From a virus, in IMG/VR virus record IMGVR_UViG_3300001749_000011, positions 1-37,093 of that record: a stretch of DNA of 37,093 nucleotides; one strand, written 5' to 3'. A program made the position numbers and the translations under genes. Below the pieces are notes generated by a model that saw nothing but the letters and a program-made list of their open reading frames with translations, did no database searches and was not told where the DNA came from. Shown here piece after piece: positions 4,429 through 37,093 of the stretch. How positions within the stretch are numbered: position 1 is the stretch's first letter; each line of letters starts with the position of its first letter.

Positions 4429-4519
4429 TTAAAAATCTCCTGTATATACCCCAAATTAATGCGTAGAGTACTCTAATCGGGCATTTCTCATAAAAGACGT
4501 ATAAACATAAGCGAATTAT

Positions 4520-6304
4520 TTAAATCTCTATACCGTGCGCTATAAATTGCTTATAGACGACATCGAATATTCTCTTCCCTGAATCCTCTAATACATCTTC
4601 ATCTAATCTTAAAGCATTTATCTGTACTGCTCCTTCTCCAATATTTATTTCGATATTATTCCCGGTCTTTAATTTACCTTCTTCAGTTACCACTTCTCTA
4701 TCTTTTAATAAAGCTAATCCTTCTCCACCGGGAATAGGACTTCTGAATACTCCACCTTTATGTAATAATGGTATATTCGGGATATTAAATCCCCATACAT
4801 TCCCACCAAAACCCGGTACCCAGTCAGGAATTTCTACTCGGAATTTATTTAAGGCATTTATAATCCAATTTATAGCTTGAATAAATACATTGACAACACC
4901 TTTTAAAGCTCCGGTAATACCACCCCAAATATTCACCAATCTCTGAACAAAATATTCCCATATCGAAGCTCCATAATCACTTATAGATTCCCATATATTT
5001 ATCAGGTAATCTTTAATTCCATCCCAGAGATTTTTTATCCAATCTCCAACTCCACCCCATATATTTTTCACTGAATCACTTACTCTTCTAAATGTAGCAG
5101 AAGCATAATCAACTATATTGGGAAATACATTCTTAAAATAATCAACTACTTTCTTTACAGAATCTATTAATGCCTTTAAAGTCTTCTGGAAGAAAGCAGT
5201 TACTTTATCCCAATTTTTGTAGAGTAATACGAGAGCTGCAATAAGAGCTATGATTCCTATTACTATCCAGGTTATAGGATTTGCTAATAGAGCAGCAGTA
5301 AAAGCCCATGCACTCTGGGCACTGCTTATCATGGCAGGAATAAAATTACCATGTAGAATTTTACCGAGAAGGCCTGAACCAACTGAAACTAATTTCATAG
5401 CAGGCCCAACCAGATATAAGGCAGGAGCAAATTTAGCAGCTTGTTCTACTGTACCCGCAAATTTAAATCCCAATTCTCCTACTGCATGCTGTAATTTCTG
5501 CATCGGTGTATAGGATTCAGCATGAATATCTGCATTCCTCTGGATAACTTCCGAACTCTTTACAACCTCTGCATTATATTGATTGAAAGTATCTTCACTT
5601 ATTCCCAGAGTTTCAAGCAAGGTATCCATGCTTCCTTCGGATTCTACAACTGCTTGCATAAATTCTGTCCTGGCAGTTCGAGCACTCATACCAAATTGCT
5701 TTTCAAGTATACCCAGAATGGCAGCACTCTGATTTACATTCATATCCATTTCTCGTAAATCAGGTCCGCATCTATCTAAAAATTTCAAGAATTCACTAAT
5801 TGAACCACTAGTATTTTCAGTAATATAACCGAAGGCAGCAAGAGCTTCCTTCTCATTCCCCAATTCAATACCCATTCCTCGTAATGATGTTCCCATTTTA
5901 CCTAATTGAACGGCACTCTCTCCGGTTGCATCTCCAACTGTATCCCAGAATGTAGCATATTCTTTTAAGGCATCAGCACTTCTTAATCCTGCCTGCTTAC
6001 CTAATTCCATTAAGTCCAATACATCTTTCAAAGGGAATGTAACATTGGCGGTCTCAATGGCTAAAGTCCTGAATGCTTTTTCATTCATTCCTATCGCAGC
6101 TGCTATCTGCCTCGATTTCTCCAGCATGGGAGCCTGTTTTCTGGCAAACATCTCGATGGCAGTTGCTGCACCCGCAGCTGCCGCACCGTATTTTAGCCAA
6201 TTCTTCTCGCAAAAACCAACAACTTTTTTATTATTCGCTCCCAGTTTGTTTATGACCGGAGAAGCTTTATCTATCGCATTTATTACAATATCAAGACCTG
6301 CCAT
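4520..6304 (-). CDS. Tail tape measure protein (short)
   Basis: 594 aa. The N-terminal half is helical and Ala-rich, with a TP901-like core around LRSADALKEYATFWDTVGDATG. A strongly hydrophobic segment at about 335-365 (ITWIVIGIIALIAALVLLY) is followed by amphipathic Trp-rich repeats (VKNIWGGVGDWIKNLWDGIK, LINIWESISDYGASIWEYF), typical of tape measures. The C terminus LHKGGVFRSPIPGGEGLALL is also characteristic. Tape measures set tail length and pass through the tail tube into the host envelope. 594 residues is short for a siphovirus and implies a short tail. The start behind AAGGAGTAAAAAAG overlaps the end of the frameshifted chaperone frame by 14 nt. Confidence 0.92.
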   Translation of the reverse strand: MAGLDIVINAIDKASPVINKLGANNKKVVGFCEKNWLKYGAAAAGAATAIEMFARKQAPMLEKSRQIAAAIGMNEKAFRTLAIETANVTFPLKDVLDLMELGKQAGLRSADALKEYATFWDTVGDATGESAVQLGKMGTSLRGMGIELGNEKEALAAFGYITENTSGSISEFLKFLDRCGPDLREMDMNVNQSAAILGILEKQFGMSARTARTEFMQAVVESEGSMDTLLETLGISEDTFNQYNAEVVKSSEVIQRNADIHAESYTPMQKLQHAVGELGFKFAGTVEQAAKFAPALYLVGPAMKLVSVGSGLLGKILHGNFIPAMISSAQSAWAFTAALLANPITWIVIGIIALIAALVLLYKNWDKVTAFFQKTLKALIDSVKKVVDYFKNVFPNIVDYASATFRRVSDSVKNIWGGVGDWIKNLWDGIKDYLINIWESISDYGASIWEYFVQRLVNIWGGITGALKGVVNVFIQAINWIINALNKFRVEIPDWVPGFGGNVWGFNIPNIPLLHKGGVFRSPIPGGEGLALLKDREVVTEEGKLKTGNNIEINIGEGAVQINALRLDEDVLEDSGKRIFDVVYKQFIAHGIEI

Positions 6305-11983: not shown

Positions 11984-12934
11984 TTATAATTTATAATATT
12001 CTTTCATCCAATCAATCGTCCTTTTTATTCCTTCTCTAATATCAACAGTAGATTTATGTTCTAATTCTTTAATTGATAAATCTATATTGACTCTCTTTTT
12101 TTTAGTAGTCAATTTTTCGCTATTTTCATAATGTATTAAATCCCTTTCTGCTCCTGTGTAATTCCAGATGATATCTGCTAATTCTTCAATGCTATAATAT
12201 TCATTACTACCAATATTATAAATCCTGCCTGGTATAAAATTATCAGATATGTTTGCTATTGTCCGGGAACAATCATCAATATAGCTATTAGAACGATAAT
12301 GACCTTTATATATTATTATTGGAAATTTTGATAATGCATGATAACAGAATTTACATATGGCAGAACGGTATGGATGATAATATTCTCCCGGACCATAAGT
12401 ATTAAATAATCTTACTATAATAGTTTCTGTCCCATACATAATCCGAGAATTTCTGATTTGCAATTCATTAGCCCATTTTGATATAGCATAATCATTCATC
12501 TGATTAATTACATATTTATCAGGTATATTTTCTTTCATAATACCCGCATAATCTCCGTATATTTCCGAACTTGAAAAGTGGACTAATTTAAATTTATATT
12601 TTTCCTGCAATCTGATTATATTCTTCAGGCCTATTAGATTACTTTTCCACATCTGTTCGTAATAATCTTCCCCATTCCACCTGCCAAATTCAGCTGCACA
12701 ATTATAGATTAAATCAAATGGACCTACTTCGGTTATAATCCTTTCTATCTGTCTGTATTCTCCAATATCACATCTGGCATATTCCCAATCTTCATTACCC
12801 ATTTTTTGTATGAAGCCAACTTCTCCAGCATGATGTAATAAATCTATTCCGAAAATATTATGTCCTCTTTGTTTCAATTCTTCTGTCAATTTTTGCCCTA
12901 TAATACCCTCTGAACCAGTTATTAATATCTTCAT
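11984..12934 (-). CDS. NAD-dependent sugar epimerase/dehydratase (extended SDR)
   Basis: 316 aa from the ATG at 12934, chosen because GGAG is 9 nt upstream and the ATG overlaps the upstream stop as ATGA. The Rossmann glycine motif GSEGIIG is at residues 7-13, the active-site Ser region HFSSSEIYG at about 119-127, and the YxxxK pair Tyr149/Lys153 in NDYAISK. The C-terminal YIDDCSRTIANI and GRIYNIGSNEYYSIEELADI are typical of nucleotide-sugar epimerases and 4,6-dehydratases. It likely converts a nucleotide sugar used by the two downstream glycosyltransferases. Substrate unknown. Confidence 0.9.
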   Translation of the reverse strand: MKILITGSEGIIGQKLTEELKQRGHNIFGIDLLHHAGEVGFIQKMGNEDWEYARCDIGEYRQIERIITEVGPFDLIYNCAAEFGRWNGEDYYEQMWKSNLIGLKNIIRLQEKYKFKLVHFSSSEIYGDYAGIMKENIPDKYVINQMNDYAISKWANELQIRNSRIMYGTETIIVRLFNTYGPGEYYHPYRSAICKFCYHALSKFPIIIYKGHYRSNSYIDDCSRTIANISDNFIPGRIYNIGSNEYYSIEELADIIWNYTGAERDLIHYENSEKLTTKKKRVNIDLSIKELEHKSTVDIREGIKRTIDWMKEYYKL

Positions 12935-13506
12935 TTTGTCTTTCTCCAAAAACAAGTTTTTATATAATCAGGAGGCCCATCCCATTCATCTTTATATAGA
13001 GGTTTAAGCCCATATTTTATTACAGTATCTTTTGTATTCTCTTCTGTTAATTTTGCCATTGCTATTGATTGCCAATCATGAGAAGCGAATACAGAATCCT
13101 TAGGTAATAATTTAATGAAATAATTAAAATCCCTTAATTTATTTCCATTATCAGAAAAGAATAAAATCGGGCTATCAATATATTTGTTCATCTCTTGAAT
13201 AGAGTCTTTATGATAACAATCTCTATTAATGAATTTTATCCCTAGTAATTTGAAAAGTTTGGGTTCTTTAATCGATAATATATCATAAGTTAATAATGGT
13301 TTTAATCCTCTTTCATAACATTCTAATCCCAAAAATATGGATAAAGCTCCGCGCCCAGTTCCGATTTCGATTATCCCTTTTATCTGTTTATTATCATTCA
13401 AGATATCATCTATTACTTTATACATCCAATAAGCATGGCTTTGACGAAATCCTAAAAAAGTTCCATACCATCTTTTATATTGATATCTTAATTCATCAGT
13501 TACCAT
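12931..13506 (-). CDS. Class I methyltransferase-like protein of the sugar cassette
   Basis: 191 aa. Residues 45-60 (IIEIGTGRGALSIFLG) form the SAM-binding motif I; strands LLTYDIL and SPILFFSDNG follow as motifs II and IV, and SVFASHDWQS near residue 140 recalls the Methyltransf_24/cephalosporin-hydroxylase-like group that modifies sugars. It is slightly short, with a reduced C terminus. Position between a sugar dehydrogenase-like gene and an epimerase points to sugar O-methylation. It starts two bases after the upstream stop. Methylation is inferred; a hydroxylase-like or other role is possible. Confidence 0.72.
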   Translation of the reverse strand: MVTDELRYQYKRWYGTFLGFRQSHAYWMYKVIDDILNDNKQIKGIIEIGTGRGALSIFLGLECYERGLKPLLTYDILSIKEPKLFKLLGIKFINRDCYHKDSIQEMNKYIDSPILFFSDNGNKLRDFNYFIKLLPKDSVFASHDWQSIAMAKLTEENTKDTVIKYGLKPLYKDEWDGPPDYIKTCFWRKTK

Positions 13507-13507
13507 T

Positions 13508-14275
13508 TTAATTATCCCTCATCTTCAAATAATGGAGATTCAATTCCTTTGCCAAATCCACAAGAGGAATATTAATAGACATTTTCTTAGCTATATTACA
13601 TAAAAATCCGATGTCTTTCGGTAAGCATTTACCCCCTGCTCCTCGATAACCATCTTTATTTGCTATCAGATGCCTTGCATTAATATTTTTATCCATTCCT
13701 ATTATCTTATAGATATTATTATAATCAGCTTCTAAAGCATTACTCAAATCATATATCTCTTCTGCGAATACAACCTTTATAGTGGCTAAGGAATTCAAAA
13801 CTAACTTTGCCAGTTCAGCTTCTACCGGCCTTACCTTTATAAAATAATTACAGACTATAGCTTTACTCATTAATTTTAATAAATAAACGAAAGCTTCATT
13901 ATTCTGTGTACCTATAATTACTTTATCCGGTTCTCTCATATCTTCGAGTGCCTTCTCTTCTATAAGGAATTCAGGCATAAATACTATTATTCTATTATGT
14001 TCCAGAATCAAAGAATCGGTTGTACCCGGTAATACTGTAGTCCGGAGAACAATTATAGCTTTTTTATTTTCTTTCACTACTCCTTTTACTACTTCTCTGA
14101 TTAAACTCATATCTTTGCTTTTATCATTTATGCAGATAAAAATTACATCTGCATCGGTTAATTCATCATTAAATCCTTTAACGGGGTCATATCTTTTTAT
14201 GTCCTGAAATTTATCACTAAGTATTTGATATAAAGCATTACCTATTATACCCAAACCAATGATACCTATATTCAT
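13508..14275 (-). CDS. Short UDP-glucose/GDP-mannose dehydrogenase-like protein
   Basis: 255 aa behind AAAGGACGAAAAA. NAD-binding glycine motif GIIGLGIIG is at residues 4-12 and PEFL at 101-104. The catalytic-type Lys157/Asn161 (AELAKLVLNS) and Cys217 in GYRGAGGKCLPKD are all present. Full-length family members are about 390-450 aa with a third, UDP-binding C-terminal domain. Here the protein ends soon after the Cys motif, so that domain is absent. It may oxidise a nucleotide sugar in an altered way or act as a dehydrogenase of another substrate. First gene of the cassette, 154 bp downstream of the capsid gene. Confidence 0.82.
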   Translation of the reverse strand: MNIGIIGLGIIGNALYQILSDKFQDIKRYDPVKGFNDELTDADVIFICINDKSKDMSLIREVVKGVVKENKKAIIVLRTTVLPGTTDSLILEHNRIIVFMPEFLIEEKALEDMREPDKVIIGTQNNEAFVYLLKLMSKAIVCNYFIKVRPVEAELAKLVLNSLATIKVVFAEEIYDLSNALEADYNNIYKIIGMDKNINARHLIANKDGYRGAGGKCLPKDIGFLCNIAKKMSINIPLVDLAKELNLHYLKMRDN

Positions 14276-17572: not shown

Positions 17573-18499
17573 TTATACTCCTATCTTTACTAAATCTTCT
17601 TCATAAAAGAAATCTCTTCCGGTCGGTGCTTTAAATCCTTCTGGCATTAAGAAAGGTACTACCCTGCATCTACATTGAATCCATTCAGCTATATCTCCAC
17701 TTGTATCGAGAGGATGCATTAATCCATTACTGAATGGTTCTCCTACCTTTACTATCTGTCCATGTAGATATGTATGGTCTGCTAAATCTGCAGGGTCATT
17801 CCCTCTAACTCTATCATCTTGTGCAGTCCACCATTGATGATAATCTACTCCCAATTCCTGCTCGGTCATAAATGTAGCTACATTCTGCGCTCCATTTATT
17901 TCAGTCCTCGCTACTCTACTTAATTCATAATCAAGCATTGAATCAAATGTACTATCAAGATTACTCGCGGCCTCAGCTATTCCTAAACCTTCTTCATAAC
18001 TATCGGCAAGATTAGCCATTACATTATCCGTTATTCTGGCAAGCGTGGCATCAGAAGCTACAAAGGTTTTATCCTTAATCAATTTTAATATTTCTGGAGA
18101 GAATTCGCTAAATTCTACATCTGCTATTTTTATTATCACTCGGGGTCCCGAGCTTGTCCTTGATTTTTTAGTTTGCTTTTTGATTTCACGTATAGTTTCA
18201 GTCCTATGATAGCTTAAAGTCTCCTGTTTATTATCGAATAATGTATTACCAAAATCCTCTTTTATGTCACTCAACCCTGATAATAGAGCTTTCCTCTCCA
18301 TATCACTCGAAGGAACAGTATCTCTCTTCTTCAATTCATTCATTATCTTTTTGAACTGCTTACTAAAGAGTTTTCTTAATTCCCTATTTAGTCTGCTCTC
18401 TTCCTCAATTATCTTCTTTGGTATCCCTTTGTATATTCCTAAGGAATTTCGCGTATGCTCTATCTCTATCAGCATCTTTAGGATAGCGTTTTCTAACAT
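17573..18499 (-). CDS. Minor head protein, SPP1 gp7 / MuF family
   Basis: 308 aa. The C-terminal half has the SPP1 gp7/MuF pattern: RVARTEINGAQNVATF, then YHQWWTAQDDRVR, then ADHTYLHGQIVKVGEPF, and finally the Cys-containing EWIQCRCRVVPFL. The N-terminal half is helical. Proteins of this family sit at the portal and take part in head morphogenesis and genome ejection. The start at 18499 overlaps the portal gene by 95 nt behind a GAGGTG-type site; a later start is possible. Position directly after the portal supports the call. Confidence 0.87.
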   Translation of the reverse strand: MLENAILKMLIEIEHTRNSLGIYKGIPKKIIEEESRLNRELRKLFSKQFKKIMNELKKRDTVPSSDMERKALLSGLSDIKEDFGNTLFDNKQETLSYHRTETIREIKKQTKKSRTSSGPRVIIKIADVEFSEFSPEILKLIKDKTFVASDATLARITDNVMANLADSYEEGLGIAEAASNLDSTFDSMLDYELSRVARTEINGAQNVATFMTEQELGVDYHQWWTAQDDRVRGNDPADLADHTYLHGQIVKVGEPFSNGLMHPLDTSGDIAEWIQCRCRVVPFLMPEGFKAPTGRDFFYEEDLVKIGV

Positions 18500-19949
18500 C
18501 TTCCATCAACACCTCGATTAATTTATTCTTCAGGCCTTCAAGTATATTAACTAATTCTATCTCCGGTACAAAACTACCAGCATCTATTGCTTTACCACTA
18601 AGGTAATGCATATCCATAGCAGGATTATCTTCTACTGCTTTAAGCCCATATCTATTTCCTACATGAGCAATTCCTTGATTCGGGGTCATCATAGCATTTG
18701 TTATTAACTTGATACATCTATCAATCTCTTTATCCTCATCTTTAGTATCTATGCTTACCAATTTCCATATCCAATCTTTGATTTCAAGTGTAGGAAATAC
18801 AAAGAAATTAATGAATTCTTCGTAGAGTTTCTGTTTAGGAAGTATTACTGAATCATTATAAATTACAGTACTTTCCAATCCGAGATTCCCTGCTAATTGT
18901 CCGGTCTCATATATTCCCATTCTGTAAGGTGGAGTGGCATGTGCAGTAATGACTTCATTTCTATTATCAACTCTATATAATCTAAAACTTGCCTCTTTTA
19001 TATCAGTAGAAATCGGTTTAATATCAATCTTGACTTCACCCAGTGAACCATCCCTTTTAGGAACTACCATAGTCATAACACTATGAGGATTCTGAGCCAT
19101 AGCTTTAAATTTTTCTTTGATAGCAGTTTCTAATGGGGTCATCTTAGTTTTAGGGTCCTCTTTACCCGGTTCGAAATCTCCGGTAATGTAAACTATATAT
19201 GCAGGTATACCATAATTCTTGAAGAAGGATATATTATAATCCCTTCTGGAGATATCCCCGGTTATAGCTCCGATCGCAGGAACGATATCAGGCACTCCAT
19301 AAAAAGTACTTCGAGGATAGTAATTCATAAGCCAGTATATCTCAGTTGCCCTCTTACTTTTATCCAGAGATTTTTCTTTTAATTCTCTACCATCCTTTTT
19401 ATCTACATCTTTCTCATATCCGAAATTCCTGAACCAGACTTTTTTATTATTCCATTTCTGGCAGAATTTATTACCTTGTTTGTGCATTCTTATAGTATAT
19501 GCAGGTATATGAGTAATCAGACTTACCGGACCATTAAAATCATTATTCTCTCTTACTACTTCCAGGCCTGAATATCCGTTAGCTTCATAATCTATACTCG
19601 ACCTTCTTATGGTTTCTTCTATCGGCATATTCTGATTAGCAAAAAAATCATTTATCCTTTTCTTTTCTTCTTCACTCGGCTTGTCTACTTTGGATTCAAG
19701 TTCCCAGCCCTTCCCGGAAGTATCGTTCGATTTGGTCTTACAAGCCCTCATGTGATAGGTATTCATCTCCATCAACTTGGCCATGGTTACAGGTTCATAT
19801 AAGGGTTCTACTAATCCGCTTTCTTTATATTCCTTAGCAAATACTTCCTTCTCCAGTTGCTGACTCTTTTCCTCTCTTTGGTATTTTGCCAAGACATCCA
19901 AACTTACTACTTCACCTATATTAGTTACAATGCAAAATGGCTTACTCAT
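18405..19949 (-). CDS. Portal protein (PBSX-like family)
   Basis: 514 aa behind GGAGATGATAAAAA, with its start overlapping the upstream stop as ATGA. The N-terminal LVEPLYEPVTMAKLMEMNTY, then RACKTKSNDTSGKGWELES, is the hallmark opening of PBSX/HK97-type portals. Further on, NYYPRSTFYGVPDIVPAIGA, NYDISRRD-like elements (DISRRDYNISFFKNYGIPAY) and AHATPPYRMGI give the usual core. The portal forms the dodecameric DNA channel at one capsid vertex. Gene order terminase - portal - MuF - protease - capsid is canonical, with one insertion (the peptidase) between terminase and portal. Confidence 0.93.
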   Translation of the reverse strand: MSKPFCIVTNIGEVVSLDVLAKYQREEKSQQLEKEVFAKEYKESGLVEPLYEPVTMAKLMEMNTYHMRACKTKSNDTSGKGWELESKVDKPSEEEKKRINDFFANQNMPIEETIRRSSIDYEANGYSGLEVVRENNDFNGPVSLITHIPAYTIRMHKQGNKFCQKWNNKKVWFRNFGYEKDVDKKDGRELKEKSLDKSKRATEIYWLMNYYPRSTFYGVPDIVPAIGAITGDISRRDYNISFFKNYGIPAYIVYITGDFEPGKEDPKTKMTPLETAIKEKFKAMAQNPHSVMTMVVPKRDGSLGEVKIDIKPISTDIKEASFRLYRVDNRNEVITAHATPPYRMGIYETGQLAGNLGLESTVIYNDSVILPKQKLYEEFINFFVFPTLEIKDWIWKLVSIDTKDEDKEIDRCIKLITNAMMTPNQGIAHVGNRYGLKAVEDNPAMDMHYLSGKAIDAGSFVPEIELVNILEGLKNKLIEVLMEDVRKRYPKDADRDRAYAKFLRNIQRDTKEDN

Positions 19950-20959: not shown

Positions 20960-20977
20960 ATCCCCAAATCTCTAATT

Positions 20978-21014
20978 TAAGCACCCTTACTTGCGATTCA
21001 GTAAAGTCGCTTAT
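20978..21014 (-). repeat. 37-bp intergenic repeat, copy A
   Basis: This stretch matches 28286-28322 at 32 of 37 positions in the same orientation. It lies in the gap after the large terminase gene, about 20-55 bp before the next start codon. On the plus strand it includes GCGATTCAGTAAAGTCGC, an imperfect inverted repeat with GCGA/TCGC ends. The position in two gene-free gaps suggests an operator or promoter element of the phage. No clear sigma70 boxes are placed around it. Confidence 0.55.
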
Positions 21015-24746: not shown

Positions 24747-24956
24747 CTATTTTTTAATCTTCAATCTTTCTTCTTTTAATAAACCCCCCGGACTATCATA
24801 TCTTTCTTGTAATTCATTACAGATTACAGGAAAAACGGCTTTCAATCTCATAGCATTCATAGTATCTGCTTTTCTCATTGCAGACATTATTAATGATGCA
24901 AATGGCGGGTCATTTTTTGATATCTCTTTTGATTTCTCATAATCATATAAACTCAT
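24747..24956 (-). CDS. Conserved small phage protein (unknown function)
   Basis: 69 aa starting MSLYDYEKSKEISKNDPPFA. The signature DPPFASLIMSAMRKADTMNA, ELQERYDSPGGLL resembles a family of small helical phage proteins found next to recombination and HNH genes. The start overlaps the previous gene by 14 nt and has AAAGGAGTAAAAAGAG. Function unknown. Confidence 0.72.
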   Translation of the reverse strand: MSLYDYEKSKEISKNDPPFASLIMSAMRKADTMNAMRLKAVFPVICNELQERYDSPGGLLKEERLKIKK

Positions 24957-25680
24957 CTCTTTTTACTCCTTTCGGAAATTCTTTTATTTCTTCCGGATAG
25001 ATATTTTTTAAGCTATCTTTTAGATAAAGAGGTACTCCAGTTCTATTACAAAAATCGACTATGACCTCTATCCACTCTTTTTTAGGAATAACTTTATCTT
25101 TTCTATTACCTGTTTCTGCTCCTACAATTACCCAATCTGGTTCAAAATCATCTATATACCTAATGTTTATCTTTTCCAATAATGGCTCGATACTAAGAAA
25201 TTTAAGCCCCTTTTTAATAGGTATACAAAATCCTTTCTTTATCAAGCTATTTGTCATAGTTACTCCGAACCAGCAATTTTTAGTCCATAAATATTTAGCA
25301 TAGACTTCCGGATGTTGAGTCAAAAATTGAAAGATATGCTGAGGATATTGTTTAATCTTTTCGATTACTCTTTCCATCCACTCAGGTTTCCAATAATAGA
25401 TTTCACTCATAGAGCCTATGAAGATTCGTTGAGGTTTTTTAGGTAGTTTCTTTTCGAATTGAGCATTTAAGAAAGTAGGTTTAAAATCTTTCAATCCTGA
25501 TAAATGGTCTCCTGTCCAAGCCCAATTTGGATGTTTTTTCCATTGATGATTAGCTTCAATCATCCAAACTTTCTTCCAAAATCTTTTTGCTATTCCTCTC
25601 GCATAACAATATTCACAATGATTTCTGCATCCCCAGCATGGATTCCATGTCATATCACACCAACCGATTTTATTCTTCAT
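24943..25680 (-). CDS. Phage Gp37/Gp68-family protein (DUF5131), radical-SAM-like
   Basis: 245 aa from the ATG at 25680 (GGAG 8 nt upstream; an earlier GTG is open). Cys18, Cys22 and Cys25 in CWGCRNHCEYCYARGIAKRF give the CX3CX2C motif of radical SAM iron-sulfur enzymes. IFIGSMSEIYYWKPEW, QFLTQHPEVYAK, CWFGVTMTNS, LSIEPLLEKI and WVIVGAETGN follow in the typical order of DUF5131. The family is common in phages; its reaction is not established. It may modify a nucleic acid or protein. Confidence 0.88.
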   Translation of the reverse strand: MKNKIGWCDMTWNPCWGCRNHCEYCYARGIAKRFWKKVWMIEANHQWKKHPNWAWTGDHLSGLKDFKPTFLNAQFEKKLPKKPQRIFIGSMSEIYYWKPEWMERVIEKIKQYPQHIFQFLTQHPEVYAKYLWTKNCWFGVTMTNSLIKKGFCIPIKKGLKFLSIEPLLEKINIRYIDDFEPDWVIVGAETGNRKDKVIPKKEWIEVIVDFCNRTGVPLYLKDSLKNIYPEEIKEFPKGVKRDEFI

Positions 25681-25831
25681 ACCGTTCACTCCAACAATCT
25701 TTGGGTCTCCACCCTCTTTTCTTTCCCTCTTTCTTTGCTTTAATCCTTATCTCTTCTATAGTCTCTCCTTCTATTATTATGCTATCATTATTCTCTATAT
25801 TCTCCGGACAATAATTTATTTTTATTTTCAT
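25670..25831 (-). CDS. Small charged protein
   Basis: 53 aa: MKIKINYCPENIENNDSIII, a Glu/Lys-rich middle and a C-terminal GWRPKDCWSERYEE. It has AAAGGAGTAAAGAG before the ATG and overlaps the Gp37/Gp68 start by 11 nt. The form is similar to small regulatory or clamp proteins of unknown role in phages. No function proposed. Confidence 0.65.
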   Translation of the reverse strand: MKIKINYCPENIENNDSIIIEGETIEEIRIKAKKEGKKRGWRPKDCWSERYEE

Positions 25832-26727: not shown

Positions 26728-27555
26728 TTATGAATTTTTTAGCTCATCTTTTTTCATAGGCATCTTCTCCTTACCTTTTGATTCGGAAACAGGTTGATGT
26801 TTTAATTTTTTTATCGCTTTTGCTATTTCTACCTGTCCCGTTTTCCTATTTTTATTAAATTCTTCTTTAGTCATTTTTTTAGATTTATATTTCTCATAAC
26901 TAAGATCTTCACTTTCACCTTTATCTTTTGCCTTCTCTCGAGCTTGTTTCCGGTCTTTCCTATACCAAGCTAATATGGTGGCATAATGACTCTTATATCT
27001 TTTCCCCTTCGATTGTATATAAAGCGAAAGGTCTTTCATATACTCTTTGGTCGGGTTTTTTCCTATCTCATTTATCAATTTATCATATTCTTTAGGTGTA
27101 AGAAAAACCCCTTTTTCATGTTCTTTCTTCTCTTTATTTTTTATTTCTTTCTGTTTATCTTTTTCTTCTGGAATATAATTATTTTCCTTTTTGATAAATT
27201 CTATTAATCTAACATCCTTTACCTTTTTAAACTCTGATTCAATGTGCTTTCTCACCTTCTCATTATCAGCAAGATAATTATATTTACCCCAATTCTTGAT
27301 AGCTATTTCATGAGTATCTGGATTATATTTAATCTTCTTTAATTTATTCTCGAAAAAATCAATTACTTTCAATAATTCTTCTTTACTAAATCCTGTATGA
27401 GCAATTACCAATTTCAGAGGGAATTCACTAATTCCGCATTGACTTGATTTCGGATTAGTAAGTAAATATAAATAAAATAATCTCTGATCTCGAGTGAGTT
27501 CAAGCATGTCGGGGTCTTCCCAAAATCTGGTATGAACATATCTGTATTCTGCCAT
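26728..27555 (-). CDS. Replisome organiser / DnaD-like replication protein
   Basis: 275 aa starting MAEYRYVHTRFWEDPDMLEL behind AAAGGAGTAAAAGAG. The N-terminal ~100 residues are a winged helix: LTRDQRLFYLYLLTNPKSSQ, FPLKLVIAHTGFSKEELLKV and HEIAIKNWGKYNYL. This is the phage replisome organiser pattern, which binds the origin and loads helicase partners. The rest is highly charged: a KE-rich linker, then KEYMKDLSLYIQSKGKRYKS, a DnaD-type region, and a basic C terminus with KRYKSHYATILAWYRKDR. It shares a family with the N-terminal part of the gene at 36527-37093. Confidence 0.82.
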   Translation of the reverse strand: MAEYRYVHTRFWEDPDMLELTRDQRLFYLYLLTNPKSSQCGISEFPLKLVIAHTGFSKEELLKVIDFFENKLKKIKYNPDTHEIAIKNWGKYNYLADNEKVRKHIESEFKKVKDVRLIEFIKKENNYIPEEKDKQKEIKNKEKKEHEKGVFLTPKEYDKLINEIGKNPTKEYMKDLSLYIQSKGKRYKSHYATILAWYRKDRKQAREKAKDKGESEDLSYEKYKSKKMTKEEFNKNRKTGQVEIAKAIKKLKHQPVSESKGKEKMPMKKDELKNS

Positions 27556-27581
27556 CTCTTTTACTCCTTTATTATATCCTA

Positions 27582-27661
27582 AAAAAAAAGAGAGGAATGA
27601 GATTTTAATTATGGAAAGAGATGATTAATAGGAGCATCCACTTTCAAAATCCGCATTCCTC
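27582..27661 (-). terminator. Terminator-like structure with T9 run
   Basis: Minus-strand GAGGAATG (27661-27654) pairs with CATTCCTC (27599-27592), followed by TCTTTTTTTTT. Inside, GAAAG/CTTTC (27645-27641 with 27618-27614) and GATG/CATC (27638-27635 with 27623-27620) give a nested stem-loop. The T9 run is the longest in the window and supports termination. The structure overlaps the small frame 27609-27698. It lies upstream of the replisome organiser gene. Confidence 0.55.
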
Positions 27662-27698
27662 GCTTTGATTTTTTATCCTCTATTCTTTTTTCAGACAT
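27609..27698 (-). CDS. Tiny possible leader peptide within the terminator structure
   Basis: 29 aa: MSEKRIEDKKSKRGMRILKV then DAPINHLFP. AAAAGGAG lies about 10 nt before the ATG. The frame runs through the nested stems of the T9 terminator, so it may be a real tiny protein or a leader peptide whose translation affects the hairpin. Support is the Shine-Dalgarno and position only. Confidence 0.45.
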   Translation of the reverse strand: MSEKRIEDKKSKRGMRILKVDAPINHLFP

Positions 27699-27743
27699 AA
27701 AAAAACATCTCCTTTTCAGCTCCTATATCATAATAACATATAA

Positions 27744-28235: not shown

Positions 28236-28285
28236 TTTTTAATCCTCCTTTCTCTTTTTTAGGAATATACTTTAAATTTCAAAGC

Positions 28286-28322
28286 TAAGTACCTTTAATC
28301 GCGATTTAGTAAAGTCGCTTAT
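28286..28322 (-). repeat. 37-bp intergenic repeat, copy B
   Basis: Matches 20978-21014 at 32 of 37 positions. It lies about 50-90 bp before the GTG start at 28235. On the plus strand GCGATTTAGTAAAGTCGC is an imperfect inverted repeat (GCGATTTA against TAAAGTCGC). A GATAGATAGATATAG run lies just upstream on the minus strand. The rest of the gap 28236-28412 holds no gene that I can support. Possibly an operator or promoter. Confidence 0.55.
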
Positions 28323-31824: not shown

Positions 31825-32079
31825 TCAACCCCTTTCTTTTATCCAATCATTTTTATCATTTATATAAGCACATACAACTTTACCATTCTCCAATCTGATG
31901 TATGCTTTGGCAGGAAATTCTTTTCTTATCTCATAAATTTCTCCTCTCATTATTCCATATGGCATAAGTACCCATACTTTTTGTAAATGTGATAAATCTG
32001 CATTAGCTTGTGATTTGAAATTTCTTAATTGATAGATTTCTCGTGTAATTTTTGTAGATTTCTTTGAAGGTTTTTTCAT
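31825..32079 (-). CDS. Small basic protein of unknown function
   Basis: 84 aa starting MKKPSKKSTKITREIYQLRN, a basic N terminus then a beta-like part VWVLMPYGIMRGEIYEIRKE and AYIRLENGKVVCAYINDKND. The first gene after the best sigma70 promoter of the window (32102-32130), with the AAAGGAGTAAAGAG leader. It could be an SH3-like small protein. No family recognised. Confidence 0.68.
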   Translation of the reverse strand: MKKPSKKSTKITREIYQLRNFKSQANADLSHLQKVWVLMPYGIMRGEIYEIRKEFPAKAYIRLENGKVVCAYINDKNDWIKERG

Positions 32080-32101: not shown

Positions 32102-32130
32102 ATTATACAGAATTTATATACATTTGTCAA
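32102..32130 (-). promoter_or_regulatory. Perfect sigma70 promoter
   Basis: Minus strand: TTGACA (32130-32125), a 17-bp spacer, TATAAT (32107-32102). Both boxes match the consensus exactly. The predicted start near 32095 gives a short leader, with AAAGGAG and the ATG at 32079. It drives the small basic gene, the RHH gene, the RecB-like nuclease and probably the whole replication set below. Confidence 0.9.
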
Positions 32131-33022: not shown

Positions 33023-33574
33023 TTATTTTATACCTTTCTTTAAATTTTCAATTTTCCACAATGGTTGCAAATTAGATAATGCCCAACATTTTCTTATTTC
33101 TTCACAATCCATAGATATTATGTTAAATTTAGAACGTGGAATTATATGGTCTACATGCCATTTCCCATAATTATTCCATGTCATCCCTTTTTTAAATTTC
33201 GATTCCAAATGTTTTTTTAATTGGATAAGATTATATCCCACAATTGATACCCATTTTCTCCTTCTTTTAACTATGCCTTTCGCTTTCAATGATTCATAAA
33301 TACATCTTGACATATTATAATGTAATCTTACTATTGGATTCTCTGCCCTTCTCTTTCTTTGACTTGCATTCCTTTTTTCTCTATTACCTATTAACCATTT
33401 TTTATATTTATCGGTTAATCTATATTTTTTTAATCTTACAATTGTTGCTTTCTTTATATCAGTTCTTTGATAATAATCTCTATTATATTTTGTATCCTTA
33501 GCTCTATTTTCTGGATTTTTACGATATTCTTTTTTTTTCTTCCGCCAATATACTCGTAATTGTTCTTGATTCAT
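33023..33574 (-). CDS. Free-standing HNH endonuclease
   Basis: 183 aa from the ATG at 33574 (an upstream TTG would add 18 residues but runs into the leader structure). The basic N terminus (QLRVYWRKKKKEYRKNPENR) is followed by LHYNMSRCIYESLKAKGI and the HNH core: NNYGKWHVDHIIPRSKFN, CWALSNLQPLWKIENLKKG. This is the phage HNH family that behaves as a homing endonuclease. It is controlled by its own promoter and a structured leader, unlike the neighbouring genes. Confidence 0.88.
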   Translation of the reverse strand: MNQEQLRVYWRKKKKEYRKNPENRAKDTKYNRDYYQRTDIKKATIVRLKKYRLTDKYKKWLIGNREKRNASQRKRRAENPIVRLHYNMSRCIYESLKAKGIVKRRRKWVSIVGYNLIQLKKHLESKFKKGMTWNNYGKWHVDHIIPRSKFNIISMDCEEIRKCWALSNLQPLWKIENLKKGIK

Positions 33575-33600
33575 CTTCTTTCTTCTTCTTTCCTCTAAAA

Positions 33601-33697
33601 TAAAAAGGCACATTTCGGTTGGTAACAAGGAAACGGTTAAACTTCCTAAACCTACTTTGTGCCTTTTATAAACTAAAAAAACCGTTCACTTGCTACC
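33601..33697 (-). promoter_or_regulatory. HNH leader with interleaved inverted repeats and terminator
   Basis: Minus strand, in order: A GGTAGCAAGTGAACGGTT (33697-33680), B AAAAGGCACA (33667-33658), A' AACCGTTTCCTTGTTACC (33638-33621), B' TGTGCCTTTT (33612-33603). A and A' are complementary at 15 of 18 positions; B and B' pair perfectly over 10 bp and are followed by a T-rich run (TTTTTATTTT). The order A-B-A'-B' makes the two stems mutually exclusive or a pseudoknot. It lies between the promoter at 33704-33732 and the HNH start, so it can act as attenuator/antiterminator. Confidence 0.7.
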
Positions 33698-33703
33698 GTA
33701 AAT

Positions 33704-33732
33704 ATTATACCACAATTATTTGTTTATATCAA
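33704..33732 (-). promoter_or_regulatory. Sigma70 promoter of the HNH gene
   Basis: Minus strand: TTGATA (33732-33727), 17-bp spacer, TATAAT (33709-33704). The -35 box overlaps the last codons of the preceding gene, so the promoter is an internal start of the early operon. The predicted transcript begins with the interleaved repeats (33697-33601). Strong on sequence. Confidence 0.85.
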
Positions 33733-33984
33733 AACATTTTGCTTCCCCCTCTTTACTATCTTTAATAACTTTACTGTATCTCCACAACCTTGTTTAAAAT
33801 AGTTAAATCTCATAAGTATAATTTTGTATCTACTCCCTCTTTGTTTTAATCTCCATTTCACTATATCCCGGTGAGTTATATTTCTTATATCTTCTATGTT
33901 CCATTCACTAAAGAGTCCTGGTTTTACTTCCACAAAGTAATGGTCATTCTTCAAAAATCCATAATAAACCCTATGTTCTCTCAT
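33724..33984 (-). CDS. Hypothetical basic protein
   Basis: 86 aa starting MREHRVYYGFLKNDHYFVEV, with FSEWNIEDIRNITHRDIVKW and a basic C terminus (RLKQRGSRYKIILMRF, KLLKIVKRGKQNVLI). It overlaps the previous gene by 14 nt. Its 3' end carries the HNH promoter. No family recognised. Confidence 0.62.
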   Translation of the reverse strand: MREHRVYYGFLKNDHYFVEVKPGLFSEWNIEDIRNITHRDIVKWRLKQRGSRYKIILMRFNYFKQGCGDTVKLLKIVKRGKQNVLI

Positions 33985-36526: not shown

Positions 36527-37093
36527 TTATTTAACTCCTTCATTATTCCTTCCTGTATTACATTTCATACATAGAACTCTTAAATTATCGAATTTATTGC
36601 TCCCACCTTTTGATATAGGTATAATATGGTCAATTTGTAATTCTGTATTTTTTGAAGTTTTACCACATATTTGACACCTATATTTATCCCTTTGTAATAC
36701 TCTCATTCTTAATGAATTGCTTATTTTACTTCTACCATGCTCATTAGGTAATTTTATTTTATAGTTATCCCCTAATACTATTTTTATAATTTCAGAAGGA
36801 ACTTTTTTTAATATATTTGCTATTGCTATTTCCATTTTTGGTCCTCCAAATTTTTTAGTATATTTAAATATATCTTTTATCCCTATCCATTTCCTATTAA
36901 GGAAATATATCTTATCATCTTTCTGAAATTTATTTAATATTTCAATTACTTTCTCTCTTTTTATTTCTGTATCTATTGCCATAAATATTGTAGATATTTC
37001 ATAAATACCTATAACATTACTATATTCATTAGTTAATAAATATAAAAATAATGTTTTCTCGTCAGTATTTAAATCTTCAATATAATCATCTCT
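36527..37093 (-). CDS. Winged-helix (replisome-organiser-like) HNH protein, N terminus outside the window
   Basis: The frame is open to the window edge (189 codons visible), so the start is missing; the internal ATG at 36982 is not the true start. Residues read first (DDYIEDLNTDEKTLFLYLLT, then NEYSNVIGIYEIS) match the winged-helix opening of the gene at 26728-27555, including FLYLLTN. VIEILNKFQKDDKIYFLNRK continues that domain. The C-terminal part is an HNH nuclease: RDKYRCQICG, LQIDHIIPISKGG, NLRVLCMKCN with the CX2C pairs. I infer a phage replication-type DNA-binding protein with an HNH nuclease. Confidence 0.85.
   Translation of the reverse strand, partial: RDDYIEDLNTDEKTLFLYLLTNEYSNVIGIYEISTIFMAIDTEIKREKVIEILNKFQKDDKIYFLNRKWIGIKDIFKYTKKFGGPKMEIAIANILKKVPSEIIKIVLGDNYKIKLPNEHGRSKISNSLRMRVLQRDKYRCQICGKTSKNTELQIDHIIPISKGGSNKFDNLRVLCMKCNTGRNNEGVK

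Follow-up and report, generated by a model that had tools for sequence, protein, structure and literature searches.

Phage genomes are compact, and a homing endonuclease that invades them has to do so harmlessly; in T4, this is achieved by late promoters, weak terminators and hairpins that cover the ribosome site. Regulatory leaders have been reported for the T4-type homing endonucleases I-TevI, I-TevII, I-TevIII, segB and Aeh1 mobE, and the 5' end of the coding region in T4 mobE contains a partial intrinsic terminator (PMC2988022). In these T4-type leaders, a simple hairpin conceals the ribosome site of early transcripts. We compared them with the leader of an HNH gene in IMG/VR virus record IMGVR_UViG_3300001749_000011, a stretch of 37,093 bases that was analyzed as a whole and is called the window here. 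In the 183-aa gene product we find the HNH motif WNNYGKWHVDHI and a match to PHROG 1035 (phrog_1035, endonuclease VII, E 7e-9), and searches of Pfam and NCBIfam with this protein returned no match. Relatives with 30-56% identity are found in many phages, and the gene appears to be homing-endonuclease-like.

The sigma70-like promoter sequence proposed in front of the HNH gene is present on the minus strand (33732-33704, TTGATA-17-TATAAT, 11 of 12 matches). Four minus-strand sites in the window reach at least 11 of 12 matches, this one among them, and shuffled sequences yield about 1.2 such sites per strand. One other promoter-like site, at 32130 (12 of 12 matches) and just upstream of gene 31825-32079, is as good or better, and the leader behind it is short and plain. 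Downstream of the HNH promoter, the inverted repeats and the T-rich run lie on the minus strand in the order A-B-A'-B', exactly where the original prediction had placed them (Table 1). Its count of 15 complementary positions out of 18 for A/A' and its perfect 10-bp B/B' stem were reproduced. In the minus-strand RNA, the 15 Watson-Crick pairs of A/A' are joined by two G-U pairs, leaving one mismatch across the 18 positions. On the opposite strand, both G-U pairs would become A-C mismatches; pairing in the sense RNA is therefore favored over a dyad at the DNA level. With 17/18 and 10/10 pairs and a spacing of A-12 nt-B-19 nt-A'-8 nt-B', the geometry of the predicted leader RNA fits an H-type pseudoknot with spanning loops of 12, 19 and 8 nt. 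The B hairpin (-19.9 kcal/mol) encloses a loop of 45 nt and is adjoined by the U-tract UUUUUAUUUU, with UAUUUU following B'. A terminator scan with short loops gave no match, and a 45-nt loop is unusual for terminators. B' leads through UAUUUUAGAGG to the ATG at 33574, 28 nt past B', and the distance of 17 nt between GAGG and ATG is unusually large.

Table 1. Features of the HNH gene leader, in coordinates of the window
Feature	Position	Strand	Remarks
Gap of 149 nt	between ORF 33724-33984 and HNH ORF 33023-33574	-	holds promoter and leader
-35 element TTGATA	33727..33732	-	overlaps end of upstream ORF 33724-33984
-10 element TATAAT	33704..33709	-	preceded by TG; spacer 17
Arm A, GGUAGCAAGUGAACGGUU	33680..33697	-	at expected transcript start
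Arm B, AAAAGGCACA	33658..33667	-	
Arm A', AACCGUUUCCUUGUUACC	33621..33638	-	pairs with A
Arm B', UGUGCCUUUU	33603..33612	-	10/10 pairs with B
U-tract, UUUUUAUUUU	33597..33606	-	first four U belong to B'; terminator-like
GAGG	33592..33595	-	Shine-Dalgarno-like; outside A and B
HNH gene, 183 aa	33023..33574	-	ATG at 33574

The promoters of the window look bacterial and its ribosome sites are AAAGGAG-like. The best cultivated relative of its portal protein (18405-19949, minus strand) is that of Methanobacterium virus Drs3 (38%), and with an archaeal host, the interpretation as promoter and terminator would have to be revised. Elsewhere on the minus strand, nucleotide-sugar genes (11984-14275; an epimerase, PF01370, and an NDP-sugar dehydrogenase-like gene) stand amid structural genes, and the protein encoded at 24943-25689 resembles in part the radical SAM mobile pair protein A (TIGR04471), with a score below cut-off. 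An intergenic repeat containing AAGCGACTTTACTRAATCGC occurs at 20966-21014 and 28274-28322 (minus strand, 82% identical over 49 nt), with a weaker third copy in the other orientation at 4463-4548 (plus strand).

We scored all interleaved stem pairs of the window with nearest-neighbour stacking energies, which give approximate values. The interleaved pair of the HNH leader scores -45.4, and the next best on either strand -36.6. Dinucleotide shuffling of the whole window on both strands, repeated 60 times, reaches -40.8 at best, and 2000 shuffles of the local region reach no better than -34.6. The ordinary, non-knotted MFE of the leader is not unusual (z -1.3), and its signal thus lies in the interleaving, which is far beyond chance. 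The original prediction held that neighbouring genes have nothing like this structure. The HNH leader is indeed the strongest in the window, but a weaker interleaved, T-run-terminated leader stands before gene 26728-27555. In this second leader (27556-27743, minus strand), 27666-27654 pairs with 27599-27587 in a long-loop, T-run-terminated hairpin that overlaps a 29-codon ORF, and the region in which the gene starts could base-pair with TCATCTCTTT. The window also contains a second HNH gene (36527-36982, minus strand; PF14279/PF01844), whose HNH portion is similar to the one in IscB (62.7 bits to NF040563, short of the cut-off) and for which the window-wide interleaving scan showed no knotted leader.

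The window leader sequence was found only in its own virus population, to which locus L001, identical to the window over 6.5 kb, belongs. A DNA similarity search of cultivated phages returned nothing like the leader beyond short chance-level matches, a degenerate leader pattern run over IMG/VR returned only the same contig, and the leaders of HNH relatives contained no diverged homologue. The pattern ATCCTGTCAAGGAGGC retrieved 11 stretches, of which the motif-bearing ones were already known HNH loci and the others unrelated. No relevant Rfam family reached its gathering score in the window or in any of the other leaders, and nothing below these scores was convincing.

The same architecture is found with unrelated sequence before other HNH genes (L059, L093, L079, L170, L203/L223, gp034 of phage mumin6-1 and the L103 group). 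In L059, a TTGACA...TATAAT promoter precedes a NUMOD3-HNH gene, and A (TGGATAGTATAA) lies just past the promoter, with A' (TTGTGCTATCCA), the B/B' arms CCCCTATT/AACGGGGG and then TTTTATTTTTAATATG. In L093, a 192-kb virus contig, an 11-pair A-A' and a 12-pair B-B' stand before the HNH gene. The geometry is shared: A lies 6-22 nt downstream of the -10/-7 box in those leaders in which one was identified, the A'-B' gap is usually 6-8 nt, and a U-tract is followed soon after by the start codon. By analogy with these independent leaders, the proposal of a homing endonuclease equipped with a control leader of its own gains support. The same layout was also seen in front of genes other than HNH genes, or some 300 nt upstream of an HNH gene (L192 1064, L176 3539, L178 3233; the A arms of L176 and L178 are ACCGCCAA/TTGGCGGT). 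Other HNH starts have strong upstream hairpins with a tail of CTAACC or CTAACACC and no T-run (L039, L071, L090), or hairpins about 50 nt before the start that include the SD and/or AUG (L003, L008, L096, L109). The hairpins of L003 and L008 differ in a compensatory manner, and the HNH genes of all four loci are related to that of the window.

Two groups of leaders allowed us to follow the helices through sequence change. In the first, L079 and its relatives L153, L156, L162, L170, L194 and L197 share a TAnnTTTG box, which we take to be a Bacteroidota-type promoter box, followed by A-B-A'-B', a U-tract and ATG. Homologues of the L162 leader occur in 46 Flavobacterium-phage records, and the resulting group comprises Muminvirus/Lillamyvirus and IMG/VR relatives and is without an Rfam entry. 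Here, A makes up the loop of a first hairpin, A' makes up the loop within the B hairpin, and A-A' would form a kissing loop. In alignment A3 (8 sequences), 97.4% of cells pair and 12 of 29 pairs are changed on both sides; none of 500 shuffles reaches this pairing, and slid controls are 31-44% paired. The A-A' helix alone keeps 8/8 pairs in 8/8 sequences, with four two-sided changes. The window, L059 and L093 have a longer A-A' (11-18) and a larger B loop than this group. A covariance model of the group built without A-A' (R1) located a second element in mumin6-1, directly before the NUMOD4-HNH gene gp034, with GTCGTCG/CGACGAC and CCACCAA/TTGGTGG and then TTTTTATTTTATG. Weak model matches in L155, L177 and L260-L266 were left out of all counts. 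The window leader was not among the R1 matches in a full-model search of the window with filters off, and R1 had no match in 299 Flavobacteriaceae genomes under strict filters. The RNA also stands before non-HNH genes, including an early hypothetical gene. In the second covarying group (L103, L147, L014, L006), a hairpin loop GTGCGAG faces CTCGCAC, L014 has GTACGAG and CTCGTAC in their place, and pairing is 100%. Both groups keep the A-A' pairing together with the B hairpin through two-sided changes, and this conservation in independent HNH leaders supports, by analogy, the H-type pseudoknot envisaged for the window. Since the covarying version occurs in cultivated Flavobacterium phages, with two copies in vB_FspS_mumin6-1, its transcription and structure are directly testable.

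We next describe how often the layout accompanies HNH genes, using a descriptor of A-B-A'-B' plus U-tract. With descriptor and cut-offs set after examples had been seen, 9 of 177 HNH leaders score -27 or better compared with 2 of 1108 other leaders, in an HNH sample partly fetched as relatives of a match, with half of the matches coming from the relatives of one match. Both non-HNH matches are homologous to the HNH group, and shuffled leaders give 0 (HNH) and 0.35 (other) matches at this score. In a sample of loci fetched before any leader-based selection, with the window excluded and the L059 gene classed as HNH after its leader had been seen, 4/110 HNH and 1/844 other leaders match at -25 (p 0.0008), and 3/110 and 1/844 at -27 (p 0.005). 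In a generic test of HNH against control genes, best-stem, pseudoknot and MFE z-scores showed no significant difference; only the descriptor differs. The interleaved leader is a minority feature, present in about 3-5% of HNH relatives.

The original prediction also offered the repeats as possible ends of a small mobile unit. We rejected the repeats as mobile-unit or transposon ends: they lie inside the leader, and the sole empty-site comparison, in mumin6-1, shows a larger unit. Phages mumin6-1 and filifjonk9-1 are 98% identical up to just past one gene, beyond which mumin6-1 has about 0.6 kb with promoter, leader and HNH gene that filifjonk9-1 is without; the start of the next gene differs as well. 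This arrangement is consistent with a cassette having been inserted with the leader inside it, and in at least one other phage such a leader appears to travel with the nuclease gene in a mobile segment. For the window virus, we found no relative that lacks the HNH gene.

We propose, with confidence about evenly balanced, that a pseudoknotted, terminator-like leader damps transcription into the homing-endonuclease-like gene. The HNH gene would have its own promoter and a leader of about 120 nt, and the 5' end of the RNA (A) would pair with A' in the long B-B' loop to generate an H-type pseudoknot. Immediately ahead of the ribosome site, the B hairpin and its U-tract would form a terminator-like element, and the leader would most likely attenuate transcription into the nuclease gene, such that little nuclease is made. 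The leader is probably a control device that keeps nuclease production low. For the window, we infer transcription start, folding, termination and low-level control, and also that the leader works like the others. Since the covarying groups retain all of their helices, we read them most naturally as a single fold whose terminator-like hairpin holds the 5' arm tied into its loop. A broader proposal, which we consider doubtful, is that these leaders belong to a portable class of phage leader RNAs, conserved in architecture (promoter, knotted or kissing terminator-like fold, U-tract) and not in sequence and carried by HNH homing endonucleases within the mobile unit across the phages of different hosts, whose fold, perhaps bound by the nuclease, sets the output.

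The antiterminator/terminator pair suggested originally would work as a two-state attenuator, in which A-A' (the antiterminator, allowing readthrough) excludes an extended B-B' rod (the terminator). A signal at A, for example a protein, ribosome or RNA binding there, would decide between the two, and we regard this reading as rather unlikely. Computed singly and non-knotted, the A-state reaches -27.0 kcal/mol in the window and the B-state, in which inner pairs extend the rod, is nearly equal at -24.5 kcal/mol; these inner pairs (UUUCCU, ACC) conflict with A-A', and A-A' is complete before B' is made. These features would suit a switch, but the covarying groups keep A-A', B-B' and the inner stem together, all of them compatible, as fits simultaneous formation, and contain no sequence-conserved ligand core. 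It is unlikely that the knot instead hinders ribosomes near the start region, like the hairpins of T4-type homing endonucleases. Such translational control is known for I-TevI, segB and mobE (PMC2988022), and the SD and/or AUG hairpins of L003, L008, L096 and L109 occur in relatives of the HNH family. In the window, however, GAGG and AUG lie outside both helices, and the ensemble predicted without knots leaves GAGG largely and AUG mostly unpaired, so hiding the ribosome site is not the role of A and B, and its sequestration by these arms is not supported. A small terminated RNA acting in trans, which the HNH gene merely adjoins, seems quite unlikely: promoter and terminator-like end do lie within about 100 nt, and Flavobacterium-phage copies also precede the early hypothetical gene, but the helices diverge freely, even between the two mumin6-1 copies, such that no conserved target-pairing stretch is seen, and descriptor matches are enriched before HNH genes. 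A chance or dead juxtaposition of a terminator and an unrelated inverted repeat, to which the single virus population and the short arms might point, is very improbable, given a leader score beyond all shuffles and a layout that recurs in other HNH leaders.

We compared the damping leader proposed here to known systems. Like the IscB omega-RNA (HEARO), it would be a structured RNA that immediately precedes an HNH gene, but the window has a 183-aa HNH protein, an RNA of about 100 nt and no Rfam match; a RuvC family search with the protein gave no match, and the locus does not qualify as an IscB omega-RNA. Intrinsic terminator and attenuator leaders likewise have a G+C-containing stem followed by a U-tract and an upstream competitor arm; in the window, however, the loop measures 45 nt and the competitor pairs with the loop rather than with the terminator stem. 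The Flavobacterium-phage R1 group shares the promoter box, A-B-A'-B', U-tract and start codon and often stands before HNH genes, but there A and A' are the loops of two hairpins, whereas A in the window is an 18-nt arm without a hairpin of its own, and the two have no sequence similarity. Like the T4-type systems, the window has a nuclease gene, probably mobile, with a promoter and a structured leader that would limit expression. It differs from them in being interleaved from the 5' end of the transcript and terminated by a U-tract, with the ribosome site outside. Our survey of the open-access literature found the T4 work and no description of the promoter/A-B-A'-B'/U-tract architecture. Structured control of homing endonucleases is known, whereas its knotted, promoter-proximal and terminator-like form appears to be new. 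A knotted, terminator-like leader arriving together with its gene would be another solution to the problem that T4 solves with late promoters and hairpins, in phages whose promoters differ.
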